A stretch of DNA of 64,000 nucleotides from Acetobacter sp. (GTDB lineage: Bacteria > Pseudomonadota > Alphaproteobacteria > Acetobacterales > Acetobacteraceae), in assembly GCF_022483985.1 (NCBI RefSeq), contig NZ_JAKVME010000001.1:2108001-2172000 (forward strand). The letters are read 5' to 3'. The first letter of the stretch is position 1; each line of letters opens with the position of its first letter. Positions 6,216-17,513 of the stretch are shown here, one piece after another. The notes below the pieces were generated by a model. It made no database searches. It saw only the letters and a list, made by a program, of their open reading frames with translations, and was not told the origin of the DNA. A program made the translations under genes and the position numbers.

Positions 6216-8015
6216 TTACTTCTTCATGTAACAACGCCAGCCACCCGTCGCGGTGATATCCGTGCCACTCCGGGCGACAGCTTCACTGCACAGAAAGCCA
6301 CAGACTTCCTTGCCATTGGCCAGCGTGAGACGCCCGATGGACATGGGCTGCGGAACCGAAGCGACAAATCGTCCGAAACCTGCGGTATCCAGTTCATAGA
6401 CTTCGACTTCCAGACCTTCGCCCGTGAAACCACGTTCACGCACAAGGCCCGGCTTTGGCGGCGTTGCGTCAGGCAGGGCAAAAAGCCTGTAATCAGGCGC
6501 TGTACGCGTCGTTTCCCGCAGAACGGCGTTCTCCTGCTCAAGCTGCCAGTGCAGGGGGAAACCTTTCAGATGCGCTCCCACGACAGCCAGAAGCACCCGG
6601 CCGGAGGATGAGCCGCCCCGTTCTGCAAAAGATTCCGGCTTTTCACTGCGCGCAGCACCGATGGCTTCACCCAGAGCCTCATGAAAACGCCCCGCCAGAG
6701 CAGCCAGATCCTCATCGGTGAAAGCTGGCCCGACAAATGTCACGCCAAAGGGCAGGCCATCGGGGGCAAAACCGGCGGGCACGGCGCAGGCGGCCATATC
6801 AAGCAGATTGACGAAATTGGTGTAGGCGCCAAGCAGACTGTTCGCGGCGATAGGCTGCTCGATGACCTCCTGCTTCGTGACGATACGGGGCGCGGTCGGC
6901 AACAGCATGACATCGAAATCATTCCACATCCGCTGCGCAACCTGCTGCAACGCATGCTGGCGATAAATCCCGTCGAACACATCTGTAGCGGAATAGTTTA
7001 CCGCTCCGTCGAGGATCACCCCGACAGTCGGGTCCATGTCCTTACGATTTGAGTGATAAAAATCCTTTATTGCCGCAAGACGTTCCACAACGAAGGGACC
7101 GCTGTAGAGCAGGGCCGCCGTTTCCTTCAGAGGCGCGAAATCCAGTTCGACAGGTGTTCCGCCAAGCTGCTCAAGGCGCTGTATGGCCTGTTCATAGAGA
7201 GCGGCATTGGCTTCGTTGCCGTCAAAAAAGCGATCTTCTGCCGACAGAACTGCAAAGCGGAACGTCGCAAGCGGCAGCGAATGTGGCGAAAGGGTCCGCG
7301 AAAACGGTGCACGGGCATCCGCAGCGCCCGCAATCCGTTCGACCTCCCATGCATCGGCGGTCGATCCGGCAAAAACCGAAATACAGTCAAGGGATTCGCA
7401 GGCAGGAACGAGCCCCCGCGTGCTGAGAACACCTCTCGACGGCTTGAGACCGACGATGTTGTTGAAGGCTGCCGGGACGCGACCTGATCCTGCCGTATCC
7501 GTTCCCAGAGAAAACGACACGAGCCCGGCGGCCACAGCCACAGCAGAGCCGGAGCTTGAACCACCCGAGACATAATCCGCGTTAAACACACAATGCGGCT
7601 GGCCATAGGGCGAGCGCATTCCCACAAGACCTGTCGCGAACTGATCAAGATTGGTCTTGCCGATGACAATGGCTCCGGCTGCTTCCAGCCGCTTGATCAC
7701 TTCGGCGCTTTCGCTCGGTTCATAGGCAAAAGCCGGACACGCTGCCGTCGTCGGCAGACCGGCGACATCGATATTATCCTTTACTGCAAACGGAATACCG
7801 TAAAGCGGCAGGTCATCCGCAGACAGCTTTTCCAGCTCGGCAGCACGGGCCAGAAGCTGCTCTGTTGGAACACGGCTGATCCAGACCGCCGAATCCTTGG
7901 CGGCATAAGCCTCAATGCGCGCAGAAACTTCACGCACGATCTCTGTAGGCGTCAGCGTTCCGGCGCGACAGGCGGAAAGCAGGGGTGCTATCTGCAACAT
8001 GTTTGGCAAGGTCAT
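6216..8015 (-). CDS. atzF: Allophanate hydrolase
   Basis: The 599-residue enzyme belongs to the amidase signature family and hydrolyses allophanate (urea-1-carboxylate) to ammonia and CO2. The Ser-cisSer-Lys triad is visible: Lys79 in PFAVKDNID, the cis-Ser in GGSSSGS near 153-155, and the nucleophile Ser177 in GTDTAGSGRVPA. The C-terminal 150 or so residues form the extra domain found in full-length AtzF, ending in a gamma-glutamylcyclotransferase-like segment. It is the last gene of the eight-gene operon, 41 bases after the carboxylase. It performs the final step of the pathway, and a terminator hairpin follows. Confidence 0.93.
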   Translation of the reverse strand: MTLPNMLQIAPLLSACRAGTLTPTEIVREVSARIEAYAAKDSAVWISRVPTEQLLARAAELEKLSADDLPLYGIPFAVKDNIDVAGLPTTAACPAFAYEPSESAEVIKRLEAAGAIVIGKTNLDQFATGLVGMRSPYGQPHCVFNADYVSGGSSSGSAVAVAAGLVSFSLGTDTAGSGRVPAAFNNIVGLKPSRGVLSTRGLVPACESLDCISVFAGSTADAWEVERIAGAADARAPFSRTLSPHSLPLATFRFAVLSAEDRFFDGNEANAALYEQAIQRLEQLGGTPVELDFAPLKETAALLYSGPFVVERLAAIKDFYHSNRKDMDPTVGVILDGAVNYSATDVFDGIYRQHALQQVAQRMWNDFDVMLLPTAPRIVTKQEVIEQPIAANSLLGAYTNFVNLLDMAACAVPAGFAPDGLPFGVTFVGPAFTDEDLAALAGRFHEALGEAIGAARSEKPESFAERGGSSSGRVLLAVVGAHLKGFPLHWQLEQENAVLRETTRTAPDYRLFALPDATPPKPGLVRERGFTGEGLEVEVYELDTAGFGRFVASVPQPMSIGRLTLANGKEVCGFLCSEAVARSGTDITATGGWRCYMKK

Positions 8016-8056
8016 GATGTTTTCCTGTTCTGTCAGCGTCGGATTGTTCGTGAATG

Positions 8057-11000
8057 TCAGTCTGTGCGCACAACCATGATGCGTTCGCCGCCCCGCACTT
8101 CCCGTCCCTTGCGGCAGAGAATATCCGTGACGATACCGGTTGCAGGCGAGACGATCTTCATCTCGGTCTTCATGGATTCAATGATGGCGACGGTGTCTCC
8201 CACTTTCACAGAATCACCCACATTGACGGGAAGCTGCCACACGCTGCCGGGCACCGGGCTGTCCACGCCCATGTGGCCTTCGGGGAGAAGGGATTCATCC
8301 GCCTGATTATCGTTCGTCTCTTCCTCGAATGTGTCGAGACCATTCGCAATCCAGTCCTGACGCTCGGCTTCGAAGGCGGCCTGCTGTCGGCTCCGGGCGG
8401 CTTCAATCTCGTCCCTGTTGGCGTCGAGAAAGGCGCGATACTCCCGCAGACTGAACTGCGTCTCTTCGATCTTCACGGAGAAGCGACCATATGGGAAAGC
8501 GGCACGCGCCTCCATCAGCTCATCGTGCGAGACGGGGTAGAAACGGATCTGATCGAAAAACCTGAGAAGCCACGGTGTACCTTCATGGAACACATCCGTT
8601 GTCCGCCATGTGTTCCAGACCTGTGTGGTGCGGCCAAAAAGCTGATAACCGCCTGGCCCTTCCATCCCGTAGATGCACATATAGCTGCCGCCAATGCCCA
8701 CCACATTATCAGGCGTCCATGTGCGGGCCGGATTGTATTTGGTCGTCACCAGCCGATGACGCGGGTCTATCGGAGTGGCGACAGGCGCGCCGAGATAGAC
8801 ATCGCCCAGCCCCAGAACGAGATAGGAGGCGTCAAAGATAATGTTTTTGACTGCATCAATCGAAGACAGTCCGTTGATGCGACGGATGAACTCGATATTG
8901 GACGGGCACCATGGCGCGTTGGGACGCACAAGTTCCTGATAACGCTGCATGGCTAGACGCGCCTGCTCGTCATCCCATGAGACGGGGAGATGCACGATAC
9001 GGCTGGGCACCACGATATCATCGTCGCCTGATGGAAGCGCCTGCTCGATACCGTGCAGGGTTTCCAGAAGTGCGGACAGACTGATGACATCAGGATTGTA
9101 ATGAACCTGAAGCGACCGGATGCCGGGCGTCAGGTCAATAATACCGTCAACAGCTTCGCCTTTCAGACGCTCCAGCACAAGCTGGGCACGCAGACGCAGC
9201 GTCACATCCAGTTCCGGTGGACCGAATTCGAGCAGCAGATAGCTGTCGCCCGCACGACGATACACGACCGGAATTTCACCTTCCGAACGAAACAGGATGG
9301 GACTGTCACCCGTCACCGAAGCTGTCAGGAATGGCAGATTCAGCGGCTCAGGCTGCACGCGACGGAAGCGCACCTTGTCGCCCGGATGGAGCTGCCCCAT
9401 CTTCCACAGCTCATCGCGGGTGAGCACGGCCGGGCAGACAAAACCGCCCAGACTTGGGCCATCAGGCCCCAGCAGGATCGGCATGTCACCAGTAAAGTCG
9501 ATGGCGCCGATGGCGTAGGCATTATCGTGAATGTTGGAAGGATGCAGCCCAGCCTCGCCGCCGTCCGTGCGCGCCCAGCGTGGCTTCGGTCCGATCAGGC
9601 GGACGCCCGTACGGGCGCTGTTGAAGTGAACCTCGTATTCACTGGAAAACAGCTCGGCGATATCCTCGTCACGGAAGAAATCCGGTGCGCCATGCGGGCC
9701 GTACAGCACACCCAATTCCCATGTCTGCGTCAGCGCCGGACGGTCTTCGACTGGAATGGTGATGGTCGGAGGAGCATTCGTCAGCGGCGCAGCAAGTCTC
9801 AGAACATCACCGGTACGCAACTGTCCGGTCGCATGACCACCGAACTGACCGAGCATGAAGGTTGAGCGCGATCCGAGATAAAGCGGCGCATCAATGCCAC
9901 CCCGGATGGCAAGATAGGTGCGATGCCCTGCCCCCTTGATCTGACCCAGTGACAGAACCTGTCCGGCCTGCACCTCGATCGGCTCCCAGTAAGGAATTTC
10001 CACTCCATCCAGTGTGGCAGGCATAAATGCCCCGGCAAGACCTATGGTGGCAGGAGCGTTGAAACGGAGGACCGGACCAGAAACCGTGAATTCCAGAGCA
10101 GCCACACCCTCGGCATTGCCGACAATGCGATTGGCCAGACGGAAACTGCGATCGTCCATCGGACCATTGGGGGGCACGCCCACATCCCAGTAGCCGATCC
10201 GTCCCGGCCAATCCTGCACTGTGGACTGAAGGCCCGGCGCAATGACTTCGATTGTCGTTGGCGTGTAGGCAAAACTGTTGAGCAGACCAGTAAAAACCTC
10301 ACCGGCCAGCACGGCAGGCGCTCCAGTAATGGCGCGCAGATAATCGAGATTGCTTTCCAGACCACCGATACGCGTCGCCGTCAGCGCTTCGTTCAGATTG
10401 TGGAAGGCTTCTTCTCGTGTAGCGCCCCGTGCGATGACCTTGACCAGCATCGGGTCATAATAGGGCGTCACTTCCGTACCGGTCTCGATCCATCCATCCA
10501 CCCGCACGTTCTCCGGGAAATGGACCTCAGTCAGACGTCCCGTGGACGGACGGAAGTTTTCCGCCGGGTTCTCGGCATACACGCGCGCTTCCACAGCTGC
10601 GCCCTGCGGAATCAGGCTGTCCTGTGACGGCAGAACCAGACTGCCAGCCGCCTGACGGACCATCCACTCCACGAGGTCGATCCCGAATACTTCTTCGGTG
10701 ACGCAGTGTTCGACCTGAAGACGTGTATTCACCTCAAGAAAATAGAATTCACCGCTTTCGGTATCATAGATGAATTCCACGGTGCCCGCAGACTCATACG
10801 CGACTGCGGAGCACAGGGCGCGGGCCGCCTCACGCAGTCCCTTGCGTGTCGCCTCTGACAGGCTGGGAGCCGGTGTTTCCTCAATGACTTTCTGGTTGCG
10901 GCGCTGAAGCGAGCAGTCACGTTCACCCAGCGTAAGAATGTTGCCTTTGCCGTCACCGAATATCTGCACCTCGACATGGCGTGCGAAGGCAATGAACTTT

Positions 11001-11596
11001 TCAAGAAAGACGCGGGCGTCACCAAAATTGTTGCCACCCATACGGGAAACCGCCGCGAAGCAGTCACGCAGTTCAGCCTCGTTGTGGCAGACCTGCATGC
11101 CAATGCCACCACCACCTGCCGTGCTCTTGAGCATGACCGGATAGCCGATGCGCTGGGCCTCGACCGCGGCCTCATCGGCCGTGCCGAGAATATCGGACCC
11201 CGGCAGCAACGGCACATTGTTCTGCTTGGCCAGATCGCGTGCGGTATGCTTGAGGCCGAACGCCCGCATATGCTCCGGACGCGGCCCCATGAAACGGATG
11301 CCACGTTCAGCCAGTTTTTCGGCAAACTCGGCTCGTTCACTGAGAAAACCGTAACCGGGGTGGACAGCCTGCGCCCCCGTTCTGGCGCAGGCATCCAGAA
11401 TCGCGTCCATGTTCAGATAACTGTCTGTCACCACCGCCGGACCGATCAGTACGGACTCATCGGCCTCCAGAACGGGAGGCGTGAAACGGTCCGCTTCCGA
11501 ACACACGGCAACGGACGCGATATTCATGTGCCGGAGTGTACGGCTGACACGCCGGACGATTTCTCCACGATTGGCGATGAGGACCTTGCTGAACAT
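8057..11596 (-). CDS. uca: Biotin-dependent urea/guanidine carboxylase
   Basis: The 1179-residue multidomain enzyme carries an N-terminal biotin carboxylase (residues 1-445, starting KVLIANRGEIVRR, with the glycine-rich KSTAGGGGIGM). A KipA-like half (about 455-760) and a KipI-like half (about 780-1010) make up the carboxyltransferase. A biotinyl domain ends the protein, with Lys1143 in IIESMKTEMK as the biotin site. It uses ATP and bicarbonate to carboxylate urea or guanidine in the cytoplasm. Many bacterial members first named urea carboxylase prefer guanidine, especially when encoded with two DUF1989 proteins as here. I cannot assign the specificity residue with certainty. It lies 18 bases after the second DUF1989 gene. 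Confidence 0.95.
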   Translation of the reverse strand: MFSKVLIANRGEIVRRVSRTLRHMNIASVAVCSEADRFTPPVLEADESVLIGPAVVTDSYLNMDAILDACARTGAQAVHPGYGFLSERAEFAEKLAERGIRFMGPRPEHMRAFGLKHTARDLAKQNNVPLLPGSDILGTADEAAVEAQRIGYPVMLKSTAGGGGIGMQVCHNEAELRDCFAAVSRMGGNNFGDARVFLEKFIAFARHVEVQIFGDGKGNILTLGERDCSLQRRNQKVIEETPAPSLSEATRKGLREAARALCSAVAYESAGTVEFIYDTESGEFYFLEVNTRLQVEHCVTEEVFGIDLVEWMVRQAAGSLVLPSQDSLIPQGAAVEARVYAENPAENFRPSTGRLTEVHFPENVRVDGWIETGTEVTPYYDPMLVKVIARGATREEAFHNLNEALTATRIGGLESNLDYLRAITGAPAVLAGEVFTGLLNSFAYTPTTIEVIAPGLQSTVQDWPGRIGYWDVGVPPNGPMDDRSFRLANRIVGNAEGVAALEFTVSGPVLRFNAPATIGLAGAFMPATLDGVEIPYWEPIEVQAGQVLSLGQIKGAGHRTYLAIRGGIDAPLYLGSRSTFMLGQFGGHATGQLRTGDVLRLAAPLTNAPPTITIPVEDRPALTQTWELGVLYGPHGAPDFFRDEDIAELFSSEYEVHFNSARTGVRLIGPKPRWARTDGGEAGLHPSNIHDNAYAIGAIDFTGDMPILLGPDGPSLGGFVCPAVLTRDELWKMGQLHPGDKVRFRRVQPEPLNLPFLTASVTGDSPILFRSEGEIPVVYRRAGDSYLLLEFGPPELDVTLRLRAQLVLERLKGEAVDGIIDLTPGIRSLQVHYNPDVISLSALLETLHGIEQALPSGDDDIVVPSRIVHLPVSWDDEQARLAMQRYQELVRPNAPWCPSNIEFIRRINGLSSIDAVKNIIFDASYLVLGLGDVYLGAPVATPIDPRHRLVTTKYNPARTWTPDNVVGIGGSYMCIYGMEGPGGYQLFGRTTQVWNTWRTTDVFHEGTPWLLRFFDQIRFYPVSHDELMEARAAFPYGRFSVKIEETQFSLREYRAFLDANRDEIEAARSRQQAAFEAERQDWIANGLDTFEEETNDNQADESLLPEGHMGVDSPVPGSVWQLPVNVGDSVKVGDTVAIIESMKTEMKIVSPATGIVTDILCRKGREVRGGERIMVVRTD

Positions 11597-11614
11597 GACT
11601 GATTTTCCGATGGA

Positions 11615-12259
11615 TCAGATGGAAACGGGGTCGCCGATGACCACGCGGATGGGCGTGGGCGTGAAGCCGTTGCAGGGATTATTGACCTGCGGGCAGTTCG
11701 ACACCACGACAAGCGTATCCATTTCCGCACGCAGATCGACAAAACCACCGGGCTCGGAAAGACCGTCATCAATCACCAGTTCGCCATTCTGCATGATGGG
11801 AACATTCATGAAGAAATTGACGTTGTTGACGATATCCCGCTTGCTCATGCCGTATTTTTCCACTTCCAGAAGGAAGTTTTCGCGACAGGCGTGCATGTAT
11901 TTCGTCTCATGTCCGAAGCGCACCGTGTTGGATTCACAGCTACATGCACCCGCTAGCGTGTCATGACGTCCGCAGGTGTCCTCCACGACGGTCATGAGCA
12001 CATTGCCTTCATTGGAAAACAGGCGACCACCCTTGCCGATATAGGCCGCTCCCTGATTCACAAGCGTATCCTGTGCGCTGTAGCGCTCGTGATAGGCATG
12101 GGCATTGTAGAAAAGGGCATCCACAGCCTGTTGGCTTTCAAGGTCGATAATGCGGAGGACCTGCCCCTTACGGACCACACCGGACCAGGGCACCCGGGCA
12201 GCCACAACCTCATCAAGAGTGATGGTCGAGAAGACCTTGCTGATATCGCATTCTGGCAT
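11615..12259 (-). CDS. DUF1989 protein, probable carboxyguanidine deiminase subunit (second of pair)
   Basis: I chose the start MPECDISKVF at 12259 because the longer reading frame runs back into the preceding gene. The resulting protein has 214 residues. It shows the DUF1989 pattern shared with its neighbour: QAVDALFYNAHAYHERYSAQDT, EDTCGRHDTLAGACS and VDLRAEMDTLVVVSNCP. Proteins of this type, long called urea carboxylase-associated proteins, were shown in other bacteria to form a two-part carboxyguanidine deiminase that turns carboxyguanidine into allophanate plus ammonia. It follows its partner by 16 bases and precedes the carboxylase by 18. The name CgdA or CgdB cannot be assigned from sequence alone. 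Confidence 0.88.
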   Translation of the reverse strand: MPECDISKVFSTITLDEVVAARVPWSGVVRKGQVLRIIDLESQQAVDALFYNAHAYHERYSAQDTLVNQGAAYIGKGGRLFSNEGNVLMTVVEDTCGRHDTLAGACSCESNTVRFGHETKYMHACRENFLLEVEKYGMSKRDIVNNVNFFMNVPIMQNGELVIDDGLSEPGGFVDLRAEMDTLVVVSNCPQVNNPCNGFTPTPIRVVIGDPVSI

Positions 12260-12275
12260 CGATCGGACTCCCGGA

Positions 12276-13079
12276 TCAGACAAAGAGAGGGTCGGTATTT
12301 TCGAAGCCACGGCGGGCTTCTTCACAGAAAGTCCGGCACAGATCATCCGGCTTGATGGCGGGAGCCTGCCAGCGCACGGCCTCGATCGGTCCGGGCGCAA
12401 AGGTTTTCTCCGGAGCCAGAGGATGCGGACAGTTGGAGACCGCCACGAGAAGATTCATCTCCGCCCGCAGATCGACATGGTCGCCAGCCCGGACATCGCC
12501 ATCGATCCAGCGGAAGCTGCCATCCGCCTGCGTGCTGATATGCGAGAAAAAGGTGATGCAGGAGGTGACGTCATGCTGCGACATGCCGTGTTTGCCGGCA
12601 ATCAGACGAAGGTTGTTACGTGTGTTACGCAGACCCTCACTACCAAAATTGCGAGCATTGCTCTGTGGCGTGCTGCCACCGACCAGCGTATCACTGTAAC
12701 CGCAGGAGTCACCGATGATGGAAGCGAGCACACGCCCCATGTCCGAGAACAGGACACGGCCCGTTGTGAGGCATGTGGTCCATTGCAGCTTGATGGTGTC
12801 GCCAGCGTTATAACGCTCGCTCAGATCATCCGCATTCCACAACCCGACGGAAACGCCATTGTTGCCTGATGCATTGATCAGACGCAGCGCCTGACCACGC
12901 GGCAGGATTGTGCTCCAGTACCAACCGCCCGGAATGGCTTCACGATGCAGCACACTGCTTTCGGTCATCTCTATAGGCGTGAAGGCGGGACGTGCGCCGC
13001 TTTCCGCGAGAAGAGCCTGATCACGGAGCTGGTTGTAGCGGGCGCGATACCATTCTGGTGTCTGTTGATCGATCTGCAT
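12276..13079 (-). CDS. DUF1989 protein, probable carboxyguanidine deiminase subunit (first of pair)
   Basis: The 267-residue protein is longer at its N-terminus than its partner but repeats the same core: QALRLINASGNNGVSVGLWNADDLSERYNAGDT, GDSCGYSDTLVGG and VDLRAEMNLLVAVSNCPHP. The conserved Asp/Cys/His-containing segments are presumably active-site or metal-binding parts; that is an inference. A clear ribosome site (AAGGAG) precedes the ATG. It lies 39 bases after the NikR-like gene. Together with the next gene it should form the deiminase linking guanidine carboxylation to allophanate hydrolysis. Confidence 0.88.
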   Translation of the reverse strand: MQIDQQTPEWYRARYNQLRDQALLAESGARPAFTPIEMTESSVLHREAIPGGWYWSTILPRGQALRLINASGNNGVSVGLWNADDLSERYNAGDTIKLQWTTCLTTGRVLFSDMGRVLASIIGDSCGYSDTLVGGSTPQSNARNFGSEGLRNTRNNLRLIAGKHGMSQHDVTSCITFFSHISTQADGSFRWIDGDVRAGDHVDLRAEMNLLVAVSNCPHPLAPEKTFAPGPIEAVRWQAPAIKPDDLCRTFCEEARRGFENTDPLFV

Positions 13080-13118
13080 GAAACGCTCCTTTTTATGGAG
13101 TAAGCCGAAAAATACCGG

Positions 13119-13598
13119 TCAGCACGGCGTTATATCGAGCGAAGGGGGACGTCCCTTCTCGTGAACGGGGGGAATAAGAGATGCGATGAGATGCAGTTTT
13201 CCGGAAATGACACCGGACTGCGTCATGAACTGGTCCGCAATTTCCTGAAGCTTTCCGACCTTTCCCTGCACCAGAAGAACCTCCAGTGTCTGGCGACGCA
13301 CGAGGTTGACGTGCAGAGAACTGATCACTTCGGCAAGATTTTCATATTGCAGTTCAGCAAGCCTCTGGGAAAGGCCCGTTGCGGCGTTGTTGTAGAAAAG
13401 AATGATGACCCCCGCCATCAGTTCATCCGCACAGTCATTGCGTGACGCCATCAGTTCCTGATGCAGGATATTCTGGATGGCCTGAGAGCGGCTGGCGTAG
13501 CCCTTCTCCGCCACCATGGCGTCCAGTTCCTGCAGGATACCGGGCGGCAGCGAAATGCTCACACGACTGACCTGCTCCTTCGTTTCCCGTCTGGTCAT
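13119..13598 (-). CDS. NikR-like ribbon-helix-helix regulator with altered nickel site
   Basis: The 159-residue protein aligns along its length with the nickel regulator NikR. It has an N-terminal ribbon-helix-helix domain (VSRVSISLPPGILQELD, then YASRSQAIQNIL, residues 10-45) and a C-terminal ACT-like domain with SSLHVNL, LLVQGKVGKLQEIADQ and SGVISGKLHLI. The four E. coli Ni ligands are His76, His87, His89 and Cys95. By my alignment they correspond here to Tyr, His, Asn and Thr, so only one is kept and nickel sensing is unlikely. It sits inside the carboxylase operon, 11 bases after the ATPase gene. A NikR-box-like palindrome lies at the operon start, so it is probably the operon's own regulator, with an effector yet to be found. 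Confidence 0.85.
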   Translation of the reverse strand: MTRRETKEQVSRVSISLPPGILQELDAMVAEKGYASRSQAIQNILHQELMASRNDCADELMAGVIILFYNNAATGLSQRLAELQYENLAEVISSLHVNLVRRQTLEVLLVQGKVGKLQEIADQFMTQSGVISGKLHLIASLIPPVHEKGRPPSLDITPC

Positions 13599-13609
13599 TG
13601 GCGCAGTTC

Positions 13610-14524
13610 CTACTCAGCCTTGTCCGTGACGAGGGTAAGAAGCGGAATATTCACATCTTCCCCACCCTCATCCGCGTCTTCCACGTTACCGCCGAAGGAA
13701 CGGATCAGCCCTTCCAGATGGGCTTTCGTCGAGAGGAATTCATCAGATGTCATCTGCGCCGCCCGGCGCGGACGGGACAGCGGCACTTCAATGACTTCTT
13801 CCACCCGTCCCGGACGGGGCTTGAGCACGAGAATGCGATCAGCCAGATAAATGGCCTCATCCAGATCGTGCGTGATGAAGACAATGGTGATGTCGATCTT
13901 GCGCCAGATCTCCATCAGATAGTTCTGCATCTTCAGACGGGTCTGGGCATCCAGTGCGCTGAAGGATTCATCCATCAGCAGAACGCGTGGACGGGCGGCC
14001 AAGGCCCGGGCAATGGCGACACGCTGCTGCATCCCACCGGAGAGCTGATGAGGAAAGGATGTGGCGAACTGTTCCAGTCCTACAACCTGCAACCATTGCA
14101 TGGCCTGACGACGGGCTTCCGACCGCTCGGTACCGCCCATTTCAATGCCGAACATCACATTTCGGCAGACATCCAGCCACGGAAACAACGTGTATTTCTG
14201 AAACACCATACCCCGGTCTGGGCCGGGGCCGTTCACAGGTTTTCCATCTACAAGGATACGGCCTGTGGTCGTTTCCTCAAGCCCCGCAAGGATGCGGATC
14301 AGGGTTGATTTACCGCATCCAGACGGGCCTACGACACAGATAAATTCGCGTCGGTGAACGCCGAATTCGATATCTTCAAGCGCCACGGTCCTGTTGCGCT
14401 TCTGCGCGAAGACCTTTCCAACGTGATCGATCTCCAGCACATACTCGCGCTGTTTGATCTGCTCCATACGTTCGGCCACATCCGCCGGAAGCGTGCGATA
14501 GTCGGGAAGCTGATGTTCAGTCAT
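13610..14524 (-). CDS. ABC transporter ATP-binding protein (nitrate/taurine type)
   Basis: The 304-residue ATPase has Walker A GPSGCGKST at residues 66-74, the signature LSGGMQQRVAIARAL, and Walker B RVLLMDESFSALD. These are typical of the SsuB/TauB/NrtD group. A C-terminal extension of about 60 residues (VPLSRPRRAAQMTSDEF onward) follows the nucleotide-binding domain. Its ATG overlaps the permease stop by four bases (ATGA). It should energise uptake of the carboxylase substrate, guanidine, urea or a related compound. Confidence 0.93.
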   Translation of the reverse strand: MTEHQLPDYRTLPADVAERMEQIKQREYVLEIDHVGKVFAQKRNRTVALEDIEFGVHRREFICVVGPSGCGKSTLIRILAGLEETTTGRILVDGKPVNGPGPDRGMVFQKYTLFPWLDVCRNVMFGIEMGGTERSEARRQAMQWLQVVGLEQFATSFPHQLSGGMQQRVAIARALAARPRVLLMDESFSALDAQTRLKMQNYLMEIWRKIDITIVFITHDLDEAIYLADRILVLKPRPGRVEEVIEVPLSRPRRAAQMTSDEFLSTKAHLEGLIRSFGGNVEDADEGGEDVNIPLLTLVTDKAE

Positions 14525-15486
14525 CCGTCGATCTCCCTTTTCCAGCTGAAGAACCGGTGCCCCAGAAGACCGAGAACCATGTCGGTTCCAAGACCGACGA
14601 TTCCGATAATAGCCATTGCGGCATAAACATTATCGAAATGCTGGTAACGCGCCTGCTGGGTGATGAACCATGTGATGCCTGAAGATGTGCCGATCAGCTC
14701 GGCCACGATCAGATAGGTCCAGGCCCAGCCCAGCAGGATACGCTGGTCGCGATAAAGGTCCGGCAGGATGCCCGGAATCACCACACGAAAAAGCAGCTTC
14801 AACCCCTTCGCTCCAAGCGTGCGGGACGCTTCGATCAGTGCGAAATCCAGCTTGCGTGTCGTGTTGGCAATCACAAGAATCTGCTGAAACAGCGTGCCGA
14901 TAACAATGATGGCAATCTTCGGCGCATCATAAATACCAAGAATGGCGACAGCGAGCGCACCAAATGCCGGCGCGGGAAGATACCGGAAAAAATCCACCGA
15001 AGGCTCGACAAGGCGCGCCAGACCGGGCAGCGCGCCACACAACACACCAAGCGGCACGCCGATCAGGGAAGAGATGAGAAACCCCCAGAAAATGATCTGG
15101 ATACTGTGTCCGAAAGCCTGCGTGATGGAGTGTTCCGCTCCCGTGGGAGCAGAAGACGTGAAGGCACGCACGAAAGCTGTCAGAACTTCGCCGGGAGAAG
15201 GAAGATAGACCGGGTTTGCAGCAATTCCTTGAGGAACAGGCTGATTTTTTGCCTGCATCTCGCTGACGGCACGCGTGAAATCAGCACGGTTCATCCGCAT
15301 GCCCGATTCCAGATAATCCTCGCCACCCGGGTCCGTAATCAGCACCTGCGGATGCCATACGAACGGCAGGTAGCTCACAGCACTCCAGACCAACAACGGC
15401 AGCAGCACGGCAAAAACCCCGAAGACTCCACGGGACAGCCCGTCAGTCCGCCCGTATAGTCTCCATGAAGCGGCAAGGCCCTGCAT
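14521..15486 (-). CDS. ABC transporter permease (nitrate/taurine type)
   Basis: The 321-residue inner-membrane protein has one N-terminal membrane segment, a periplasmic stretch of about 90 residues, and then the BPD_transp_1 core, with the cytoplasmic EAA-like loop around ASRTLGAKGLKLLFRVVIPG. The large loop between the first helix and the core is seen in permeases encoded beside urea carboxylase. The gene is 21 bases after the binding-protein gene and overlaps the ATPase gene by four bases. Confidence 0.92.
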   Translation of the reverse strand: MQGLAASWRLYGRTDGLSRGVFGVFAVLLPLLVWSAVSYLPFVWHPQVLITDPGGEDYLESGMRMNRADFTRAVSEMQAKNQPVPQGIAANPVYLPSPGEVLTAFVRAFTSSAPTGAEHSITQAFGHSIQIIFWGFLISSLIGVPLGVLCGALPGLARLVEPSVDFFRYLPAPAFGALAVAILGIYDAPKIAIIVIGTLFQQILVIANTTRKLDFALIEASRTLGAKGLKLLFRVVIPGILPDLYRDQRILLGWAWTYLIVAELIGTSSGITWFITQQARYQHFDNVYAAMAIIGIVGLGTDMVLGLLGHRFFSWKREIDG

Positions 15487-15507
15487 GGCGGTCGCTCCTG
15501 CCCAGCG

Positions 15508-16491
15508 TTATTTCACAGCCGCCACGAAAGACGGATCGATATAGCTGTCCACATTTTGTGGAGTTTTATAAACGCTGTAGCGGACATTGAAGGAATCGGA
15601 GACCGAGGAAGAACCGTAGAGCGACCCGAGACCTTCTTTTTTTGCAAAAACAGCCTTGTCATCAGACACAGTCAGCAGGTGCGTTCCCTTCAGGAAACGC
15701 TTGTAAGCCTCGGGCGAAACGCCCGTGCGTGTCGCCATGATCTTCAAGGCATCAGGCTGTGTTTTCGGATCCTTGATATAGGAGACGACATGATCCCAGA
15801 CACCCACCAGCTTCTGCCACTGATCCCGGTTGTCATGCAGGGACTGCGGATCGACAACGATGGTGTCATAGATCAATCCGGGCGCTTCATGGGATGTGAA
15901 TACAGGACGCGCTCCCGGCACCATATGCAACGCCTGCCCCGCATTTGGCTGCCAGGCTGCTACCGCAGCAACTTCTCCAGAAGCGAGCACCTGCGGGGTT
16001 TCATTGGTCTTCGTATTGACCAGCTTCACATCCTTCTCGCTCAGACCAGCCTTTTCCAGCCCCGTGAGCAACAGCAGATGATCGACCAGCCCCTCTTCAA
16101 CCGCAACCGACTTCCCTTTGAGCCCCTTGATATCAGTGATGCCCGGCTGGGCGACAACCATGTCATTGCCGTCGGAATAATCCGTGGCGAGGATCATCAC
16201 CCCCTTATGTCCATTCGCTCCCGTGACGAGGGCATCGCCGTTCGTGGCCATGACAGCATCAAGCTTGTGGGCCGAAAACGCATCAAGTGAGGCACTATAG
16301 TCGAACCACTGAAAATCAGCATCGACACCGGCTTCCTTCAACCATCCCTTGTCGATGGCGACCTGCCAAGCAACCCAGCCGGGCCAGTCACTGTAGCCGA
16401 TCTTCAGGGTCGCAGCGGACGCGGAGGAGAGCGTTGCCGCGACACAGACGCCAGCCAGCAGGGTTTTCCGAAGAAGCGGGAGCAGGTGCAT
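15508..16491 (-). CDS. Periplasmic substrate-binding protein of the carboxylase-linked ABC importer
   Basis: The 327-residue protein starts with a Sec signal peptide ending near SSASAA (residue 27). It then follows the NrtA/TauA-like binding-protein fold (LKIGYSDWPGWVAWQVAIDKGWLKEAG). Members of this subgroup are characteristically encoded next to urea/guanidine carboxylase, so it should capture the pathway substrate in the periplasm. It is the first gene of the operon. The ATG is preceded by GGAG and, only 11 bases upstream, by the perfect palindrome proposed here as the operator. Confidence 0.9.
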   Translation of the reverse strand: MHLLPLLRKTLLAGVCVAATLSSASAATLKIGYSDWPGWVAWQVAIDKGWLKEAGVDADFQWFDYSASLDAFSAHKLDAVMATNGDALVTGANGHKGVMILATDYSDGNDMVVAQPGITDIKGLKGKSVAVEEGLVDHLLLLTGLEKAGLSEKDVKLVNTKTNETPQVLASGEVAAVAAWQPNAGQALHMVPGARPVFTSHEAPGLIYDTIVVDPQSLHDNRDQWQKLVGVWDHVVSYIKDPKTQPDALKIMATRTGVSPEAYKRFLKGTHLLTVSDDKAVFAKKEGLGSLYGSSSVSDSFNVRYSVYKTPQNVDSYIDPSFVAAVK

Positions 16492-16502
16492 GGTCAGACT
16501 CC

Positions 16503-16532
16503 AGTAATACGAATCATATAAATCGTATTACT
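16503..16532. promoter_or_regulatory. NikR-box-like palindromic operator
   Basis: AGTAATACGA and TCGTATTACT form a perfect 10-base inverted repeat around a 10-base spacer, directly before the ribosome site of the binding-protein gene. Without the outermost base on each side the element is 28 bases long, the same as the E. coli nik operator (GTATGACGAA...ATCGTCATAC, from memory). By my alignment it matches at 20 of 28 positions. A NikR-like protein is encoded in this same operon, which makes autoregulation by binding here likely. Its position over the start region suggests repression. Confidence 0.7.
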
Positions 16533-17513
16533 CATTCTCTGACGGAATCCAGTTGGTTGCAACATAAAAATGTTCTTGCCATGAAACTAAAATCCGAACA
16601 GACACTAACATTTTGATTTCATGTCATTTATTTCAAAAGAAATCCCTCCATAAATTTGAATACCAAACAGACCCCGATGCGATAGCGCCCCATTTTCCGG
16701 GCTGGTCCGCTATTTTGCGCCGGACGAAGCCGCTCTTTGCCACAGCCAATCGGACGCGATGCCGAGCAAGTCTCCGGATAAATAAAGAGGGGAGCAAAGA
16801 AACCGCAGTCGGGATGAGCAGACACTGGACGTCCGATTTTATATTCGAAACCAGAATCAGAACCCCCTTTCATTTTACGAAAAACTCTGATTCTGCCCAA
16901 ATAAATACTTGATATTTTTATCTTCTTTGCAGGATACAGCCTGTTATGTCCGACGTCCCGGCCGGGCCACGATACGTCCCATCCTGAGGTAAGAAGAGAT
17001 CGTCCTCTGGCGCATCGTGCGTCATATCAGGATGACGCGGCTGGATGTCGCCGTTCACACTGTCAGGTCAGATACAGGCAGAAAGCAGGTCACGCGCCCA
17101 ATGACCGACGGCGGCAATTCCTTCGGTTCTCTGTGGACAGGGACGAAGCCCAACGTCGTTTCTCACACACTGAAGAAAGCAAGGCAGCGCGGGAACAGCG
17201 CCATGGCATTCCTTCCTTTATCGGCACCCCCGTTCAAGGCCACTCTTCCAAACATGGTGCTGACAAACCTCTCTACCCATGACCCTGCCTCTGATCCGCA
17301 ACTCACATAGCGCTCCTGACCAGCGCACAAGGTATGCAGCAGCATGTATATTACCAAACACTGTTTCTGATAAATACCATTCCAATATGAGGTAGACCAG
17401 AGATCGGCTCTTGCCGCCTTTCATATCTCATTGATGCATGGCGAAAAATGCTTCGGGAACCGCCTGACTCTGTAATATGAACCAGATGATCATGATAACC
17501 GGGAGAGTAGCTC
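16533..17513. other. Long intergenic region between divergent nitrogen genes
   Basis: About 980 bases separate the operator from the AtzH-like gene on the other strand. The part next to the operon is AT-rich and must hold its promoter; the far end holds the promoter of the AtzH-like gene. I found no convincing coding sequence, and no guanidine-I, -II or -III riboswitch signature. One inverted repeat at 16852-16895 is listed separately. Confidence 0.5.
16852..16895. repeat. Inverted repeat in the operon leader region
   Basis: CAGAATCAGA at 16852-16861 and TCTGATTCTG at 16886-16895 are perfect complements separated by 24 bases. The element lies about 360 bases upstream of the binding-protein start. 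It may be a second regulator site or a leader hairpin. Confidence 0.45.

Follow-up and report, generated by a model that had tools for sequence, protein, structure and literature searches.

A NikR-family protein without nickel ligands, predicted to repress guanidine operons in Acetobacter and other proteobacteria

NikR, the nickel-responsive regulator known from Escherichia coli, Pyrococcus horikoshii and Helicobacter pylori, joins a ribbon-helix-helix (RHH) domain to a NikR_C domain, holds nickel through His76, His87, His89 and Cys95 (PMC7055735; papers are cited here by PMC number for the passages concerned) and recognises signals of the forms GTGTTAC-N13/14-GTAACAC and GTATGAT-N13/14-ATCATAC (PMC545781), with GTATGA-N16-TCATAC as the E. 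coli consensus (PMC7055735). Guanidine is degraded, in the published pathway, by a guanidine carboxylase, a carboxyguanidine deiminase and an allophanate hydrolase acting in turn (PMC11410670), and guanidine riboswitches control guanidine-carboxylase operons (PMC12186494, PMC12508155). The passages of the 2025 review give riboswitches as the only known guanidine receptors besides transporters and enzymes, and add that guanidine-binding regulatory proteins may yet turn up (PMC12186494). Here we describe a NikR-like protein encoded in a 64,000-nucleotide stretch of an Acetobacter sp. genome of 3.7 Mb (contig NZ_JAKVME010000001.1, positions 2,108,001 to 2,172,000; this whole stretch is the window, and that genome the host genome). 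Its gene is the fourth in a unidirectional series of eight that spans 16491 to 6216 on the minus strand, the genes being identified from the list of open reading frames and from Pfam and NCBIfam profile matches, the order being ABC substrate-binding protein, permease, ATPase, NikR-like protein, UAAP1, UAAP2, a 1179-residue biotin-dependent carboxylase and allophanate hydrolase. Judging by the comparisons below, we consider it probable (roughly 0.78) that the NikR-like protein is a local repressor of this guanidine uptake and degradation operon, acting through a GTAWTAC operator and released by guanidine or a close guanidino compound.

The regulator, 159 amino acids long, belongs to the NikR family by fold and descent, having an RHH domain (RHH_1, PF01402, 20.6 bits against a cut-off of 20.5) followed by a NikR_C domain (PF08753, 73.2 bits, cut-off 22). 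Its best match in the PDB is 2bj1 (4.2e-22), and among the five NCBIfam NikR models that match it one is narrowly passed (83.4 of 83) and four are missed (103.2 of 105, 91 of 111, 75.8 of 175.45 and 71.5 of 119). An AlphaFold model built from 11 Acetobacter sequences had a mean pLDDT of 56.6, too low to use. Pairwise alignment with E. coli NikR and with a second NikR of the host genome places Tyr85, Asn98 and Thr104 where NikR has His76, His89 and Cys95, and keeps His87 alone, as His96. The same three losses are seen in an alignment of 113 unique NikR domains, so that the initial annotation, which had described a NikR-family protein with only His87 left, was right on this point. At the low-affinity (K+) site, Glu30 and Asp34 have given way to Gln39 and Asn43. 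That this could nonetheless be an ordinary NikR placed in a nitrogen operon, with nickel still its signal, might be argued from the NikR_C domain and from the NikR-type box described below; it is scarcely credible, given that the ligands are lost throughout a separate clade and that the second NikR of the host genome keeps all four of them.

The extent of that clade was apparent from 140 NikR matches in the fetched loci, which gave the 113 unique domains of at least 100 residues. The 35 top-scoring domains (180.9 bits and up; the next has 140.5) lack His76 and Cys95 without exception (0/35 for each) and all keep His87, and they form a single clade with a bootstrap value of 100 on a stem of 0.62 substitutions per site, with members in alpha- and gammaproteobacteria. 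All four ligands are present in 76 of the remaining 78 domains; the other two, with HHRC in L126 and HQQR in L029, lie outside the clade and are possibly other nickel-blind NikRs. When these 78 domains and E. coli NikR are taken together (79 others), position 30 (Glu30 of E. coli) is Glu in 79/79 versus Gln in 34/35 clade members, and position 33 (Arg33 of E. coli) is Arg in 79/79 versus Q, A, V or N in at least 33 of the 35. Position 81 is Glu in 32/35 clade domains and Leu in 64/79 others, position 102 is Gln in 35/35 and Arg or Lys in 73/79, and a Pro143 in a C-terminal extension, found in every clade member, faces a gap in 66/79 others. Arg3 and Arg28 are retained in all 35. Clade members stand well apart in score, nine reaching at least 185 bits among 397 genomes of the phylum sample (next best 100), three at least 194 among 150 genomes of the order of G858, in another class of the phylum (next 93), and four at least 285 among 299 genomes of the family sample (next 73). 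Three of eight genomes of the window's genus, among those listed, have the regulator, and its nearest named relatives, at up to 97% identity, are all from Acetobacter (12/12 loci). One locus of Novosphingobium resinovorum (L101) holds two copies of the gene (8986-9453 and 12531-12986). Four clade members are named 'CopG family' in public records, a label of RHH repressors; CopG itself has no NikR_C regulatory domain.

A protein that is still a metalloregulator, in which the kept His87 and new ligands sense another metal, for example that of the DUF1989 deiminase, seems improbable to us. His87 is indeed universal in the clade and a His stands at 89 in 5/35, several metals can bind NikR (PMC7055735), and sphingomonad-type loci have, near a box, a gene for a TonB-dependent receptor, whose class commonly imports metal complexes. 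However, two of the four ligands are gone in every member and their replacements are many and diverse, Glu30 and Arg33 have changed as well, and the genes found in the operons serve guanidine or related nitrogen compounds.

The gene set of the window fits the published guanidine pathway, and the carboxylase, aligned with the Kluyveromyces lactis urea amidolyase structure 5i8i, has Asp700 and Asp932 at the two places (K. lactis 1330 and 1584) where guanidine carboxylases require Asp (PMC11410670), an Asp/Asn difference between carboxylase types that is likewise given in PMC12186494. Both residues recur in 30/30 clade loci with a matched carboxylase. Judged from its genes, the operon of the window is one for guanidine. 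The initial annotation had proposed that a NikR relative kept its type of DNA target and changed its signal, perhaps to guanidine, urea, allophanate or another metal: the target has held up, in operator frame and in 33 of 34 loci (below), a change of signal is very probable, and the two signature Asp residues make guanidine or a related compound a better candidate than urea or a metal. Its further suggestion of a nickel-free route replacing urease is unsupported, since the host genome encodes a urease alpha subunit (182 bits) and also has the four-ligand NikR, and the pathway degrades guanidine.

The palindrome that ends at 16503, with 11 bases between it and the first-gene ATG at 16491, proved to be exact and the sole exact 10-N10-10 palindrome in the 64 kb, as first annotated. 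About 0.06 such palindromes are expected per window (4^-10 x 64,000), hence its weight rests on its position and conservation. Among Acetobacter sites the arms are conserved and the centre is variable, and across lineages the site takes the form GTAWTAC-N14-GTAWTAC, with TTATTAC or ATATTAC variants in sphingomonad-type loci. We searched for this pattern, allowing two mismatches at most, within 350 bp upstream of transcription units of the pathway (lone ABC ATPase or SMR units excluded), in 34 clade loci, the window not being counted, and in 20 controls, of which 19 came from the 44 genomes that have UAAP1 but lack the regulator and one was the separate UAAP1 locus of G866. A match was found in 33/34 clade loci versus 0/20 controls (Fisher 7e-14), bearing out the expectation that the palindrome would recur at related operons. 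The exception, an Acetobacter locus (L064, genome G169), carries a damaged operon at about 6400-15500, its carboxylase match split by a gap of about 1 kb and its binding-protein match short; the regulator gene is still open and no operator was found there. Clade loci had 42 sites in 23.9 kb of upstream sequence versus 18 in 605 kb elsewhere, and control loci 0 in 13.3 kb upstream and 2 in 381 kb elsewhere. Of those 18, twelve lie upstream of a gene for a TonB receptor, a regulator or a binding protein and escaped the 350-bp rule, the receptor sites being 0.3-0.4 kb off in three loci and 0.8-1.4 kb in four (with a gene possibly between); the other six look like chance. A hand-picked set of 53 sites (the 42 less two near-copies in L145, plus the twelve and the window, the six being dropped) has T2, A3 and A6 of the half-site invariant, though any two mismatches were permitted.

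Two 7-bp half-sites with a 14-bp spacing are a NikR-type arrangement, in the same frame as the published NikR signals (PMC545781), and the clade box of G866, GTATGAC-N14-GTCATAC, matches the E. coli consensus in full. A count of 20 agreements in 28 bases with the E. coli nik box, made in the initial annotation, was reproduced on recount, but both counts rest on an assumed nikA box sequence, PMC7055735 giving only GTATGA-N16-TCATAC. Exact GTAWTAC-N14-GTAWTAC occurs once in the host genome, at this operon, and in 7/11 genomes or records once or twice, eight of the nine sites in all being at these operons. With two mismatches the host genome has 16 places versus 27 for the reversed control pattern, so that only the exact site is meaningful there. 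The one-mismatch pattern was not above its reversed control in most of 10 genomes or records (6 vs 10 in W01, 3 vs 5 in G858) and was above it in W02 (5 vs 1) and G981 (4 vs 1). The Acinetobacter plasmid of L057 carries another exact box (L196 4775-4802, NZ_CP015595.1 269274-269301), which precedes a gene for an ammonium transporter close to a glnT/glxC cluster, and the regulon on that plasmid may extend further into nitrogen metabolism. Three Acinetobacter baumannii records of 3.7-4.1 Mb (NZ_CP064203.1, NZ_CP104448.1 and NZ_CP077849.1) are filed as plasmids and, judged by size, look like chromosomes.

The box lies close to possible promoter elements in three different ways. At 9/40 site and strand pairs (L109, L141, L142, G578, G866 and four out of six sites in the Acinetobacter loci L055 and L057) a sigma-54-like promoter matching 9 or 10 of 11 positions, a score reached by at most 3% of shuffles, stands just before the box with 5-19 bp from its -12 element; the other 31 pairs score 8 or less, with weak matches (8 of 11) at the three Acinetobacter UAAP1 sites; L056, the nine sites of Acetobacter type and those of sphingomonad type show no such promoter, reaching 7 of 11 at most. 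A link to sigma-54 suits nitrogen control. The boxes of sphingomonad-type loci enclose a -35-like TTGAC on the gene's strand at 9/9 receptor sites, always in the same place, and at 6/7 regulator sites (the same place in five), and none was seen at 10 matched binding-protein sites or at L056. In Acetobacter, a TTGCAA-17/18-GAGAAT-like pair is followed by the box one or a few bases on. All three placements suit a repressor. A TonB-dependent receptor gene is beside the operon in ten loci (L058, L060, L101-L103, L105-L107, L143 and L144), nine of which have the TTGAC-bearing box on the receptor's upstream side at 0.2-0.4 kb (five) or 0.8-1.4 kb (four); such a receptor is an odd partner for a molecule as small as guanidine.

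The palindrome could also be read as an RNA hairpin before the ribosome site and not as a protein operator, given that its arms in Acetobacter would pair into a stem of 10 bp immediately ahead of the Shine-Dalgarno sequence and that the central W of the half-site also pairs in 43/53 sites. This is very improbable, as the W does not pair in the other 10 and the arms are conserved as sequence and not through compensating changes. The box is moreover upstream of a riboswitch aptamer in two Acinetobacter loci and around the -35-like TTGAC in sphingomonad-type loci, which puts it outside the leader, and an Rfam scan of the 64-kb window gave zero matches, hence no guanidine-I or guanidine-II riboswitch there.

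The strongest reason to think that the signal is guanidine comes from the riboswitches, with which the regulator shares loci or for which it stands in. UAAP1 was found in 52 of the 394 genomes of the phylum sample (in one of them only below the family cut-off), a sample possibly not wholly identical with the 397 searched for the regulator. It is present in 8/9 clade genomes (Fisher 5e-7 vs rest) and in 6/41 genomes with only a lower-scoring NikR match (Fisher 0.81 vs rest; the 41 were grouped by score). Guanidine-I riboswitches were detected in 43/52 UAAP1 genomes under stricter filters, by which weak matches are lost, and the same filters gave no RF00442 or RF01068 match anywhere in the host genome. 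The regulator occurs in 7/9 UAAP1 genomes with no detected guanidine-I (the host genome, G578, G540, G711, G816, G848 and G852, and not G834 or G676) versus 1/43 of those with one (Fisher 2e-6), the single case being G866, whose regulator is placed elsewhere with other genes. The guanidine-II cut-off was passed by 40/53 genomes, including the regulator genomes G578 and G866. A scan of 22 clade loci against the whole of Rfam showed guanidine riboswitches in four: in L055 and L057 a guanidine-I aptamer separates the box from UAAP1, and L059 and L142 have guanidine-II. Strict mutual exclusion of regulator and riboswitch is therefore rejected, and the protein can either substitute for the RNA or act alongside it.

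A second possibility, tentative and in our estimate unlikely, retains the same regulator and operator and makes the signal carboxyguanidine, allophanate, methylguanidine or another guanidino or amide compound that enters through the shared ABC system. Intermediates of a pathway often serve as its inducers, and the regulator does occur beside creatininase-like and type III glutamine-synthetase-like (GS-III-like) genes, together with related ABC genes in L109, L141, L142 and L059 and with the creatininase/GS pair alone in L110, no carboxylase being nearby in L109, L141 and L110. This pair may give a guanidino compound a second route, and both the creatininase/GS and the carboxylase gene sets occur in G1003 and G578. 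Against a signal other than guanidine are the replacement of the guanidine-I riboswitch in seven of the nine pathway genomes without it, and the guanidine riboswitches that share the locus in 4/22 clade loci. At 13320-15546 of L057, an SMR transporter, a 2OG-Fe(II) oxygenase and a family-less protein are found among guanidine genes, a set that resembles the MgdH/MgdL methylguanidine pair of PMC12508155, a likeness drawn without sequence comparison. The SMR gene was considered as a guanidine exporter and dropped, since it scores best with Qac models and stays under the SugE cut-off.

Several observations weigh against repression released by guanidine. The motif was defined partly on the loci on which it was tested, the controls were not matched for base composition, and the loci are not independent, 14/34 being from Acetobacter or a near genus and 10 of sphingomonad type. 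Likewise, four of the seven regulator genomes without the riboswitch belong to one family (f13), which means fewer independent events, and both signature Asp residues also occur in 20/20 control loci, so that the signature is not specific to the clade. The best -10 behind the sphingomonad TTGAC matches only 2 or 3 of 6 positions; the Acetobacter promoter elements were picked by eye, and a consensus promoter scan found none. The putative pocket varies within the clade (Y, A, Q, R, S, V, L or G at 76; N, F, H, Q or V at 89), which is odd for one small ligand, and the five domains with His89 beside His87, as well as Asp34 retained in 7/35, make some metal binding possible. In G866 the regulator and box are beside creatininase-like and type III glutamine-synthetase genes while the UAAP1 locus, on another contig, has guanidine-I and II riboswitches and no box; G858, which has the regulator, ABC genes and the creatininase/GS pair, is not among the 52 UAAP1 genomes; and in G981 the regulator accompanies the creatininase/GS pair with no carboxylase in 20 kb. 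In view of these three contexts, some other guanidino or amide nitrogen compound may be the signal.

Table 1. Positions, strands and supporting evidence of the operon genes and upstream elements in the window.
Feature	Position	Strand	Basis
NikR-like regulator, ribbon-helix-helix and NikR_C domains, nickel ligands lost	13119..13598	-	profile matches and alignment
ABC transporter substrate-binding protein, related to putative urea-binding family TIGR03427	15508..16491	-	162 bits versus a cut-off of 334
ABC transporter permease	14521..15486	-	Pfam
ABC transporter ATPase	13610..14524	-	Pfam
DUF1989 / UAAP1, carboxyguanidine deiminase subunit (function from literature)	12276..13079	-	Pfam, NCBIfam
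DUF1989 / UAAP2, carboxyguanidine deiminase subunit (function from literature)	11615..12400	-	Pfam, NCBIfam
Carboxylase, guanidine type	8057..11596	-	Asp700 aligned with K. lactis Asn1330 and Asp932 with Asp1584
Allophanate hydrolase	6216..8015	-	Pfam, NCBIfam
Operator AGTAATACGA-N10-TCGTATTACT, i.e. GTAATAC-N14-GTATTAC	16503..16532	.	exact palindrome, recurrence upstream of related operons
Possible -35 element TTGCAA	16557..16562	-	by eye; conserved in most Acetobacter upstream regions shown
Possible -10 element GAGAAT (17 bp spacing to the -35; one base ahead of the palindrome)	16534..16539	-	by eye

As listed, the UAAP2 reading frame begins with a TTG inside UAAP1 and its conserved part starts further in, so the true start is probably downstream. 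A transposon insertion in the urea carboxylase gene of an Acetobacter fabarum strain altered its persistence in flies (PMC10269862); an A. fabarum locus in our set (L010) carries this guanidine-type operon. The regulator goes unmentioned in the passages concerned of the Acetobacter urea-carboxylase papers (PMC10269862, PMC6691051) and of a paper on the distribution of NikR (PMC2667541). As the initial annotation supposed, searches of the open PMC library, from which most subscription papers are absent, turned up no paper on a NikR-like or CopG regulator of a guanidine operon.

Given the lineage, ligand loss, operon type, conserved operator and co-occurrence with the pathway, all of them established above, binding to the operator and repression can be predicted with confidence, while guanidine or a close relative as inducer, and the polarity of its action, are inferred. 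The RHH protein would bind the pair of GTAWTAC half-sites, which lie two turns of the helix from each other, in the manner of NikR, and a box so bound at the core promoter would block transcription. With its nickel site dismantled, along with the conserved Glu and Arg at 30 and 33, the regulatory domain would sense guanidine or a closely related guanidino compound, whose binding would free the DNA, and the regulator would occupy the place that the guanidine-I riboswitch has in most other guanidine-carboxylase genomes, both being present in Acinetobacter. Compared with NikR, the clade shares the RHH and NikR_C domains, Arg3 and Arg28, and two 7-bp half-sites 14 bp apart; it differs in lacking the nickel ligands and Glu30/Arg33, in the extra C-terminal segment with Pro143, in the half-site of most members and in having guanidine genes in place of nickel genes. 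Moreover, the ligand of NikR strengthens DNA binding, and the proposed release by guanidine would reverse that sign. The guanidine-I and II riboswitches (ykkC and mini-ykkC) control the same kind of operon (PMC12186494, PMC12508155), but as RNA and not as protein, and guanidine-I is undetected in 7/8 regulator-bearing UAAP1 genomes.

We lean slightly towards regarding the clade as a family of guanidine-responsive transcription factors, the first of its kind, in which the NikR metal-sensor scaffold was turned into a sensor of a small organic cation; this sensor would have replaced the guanidine-I riboswitch in acetic acid bacteria and sphingomonads and, in Acinetobacter, would act in series with it. 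If confirmed, the signal would be new for a transcription factor, according to the passages of the 2025 review and the open PMC literature, though the fold and the DNA target are those of NikR. Several clade proteins score near or above the thresholds of nickel-regulator models or carry the name CopG family, so present annotations are likely to be misleading. This clade, for which a defined operator and a set of promoters are available, makes the question of a guanidine regulator directly testable, and would offer a natural case both of a metalloregulator that lost its metal site and of a protein repressor and a riboswitch that interchange on the same kind of operon.

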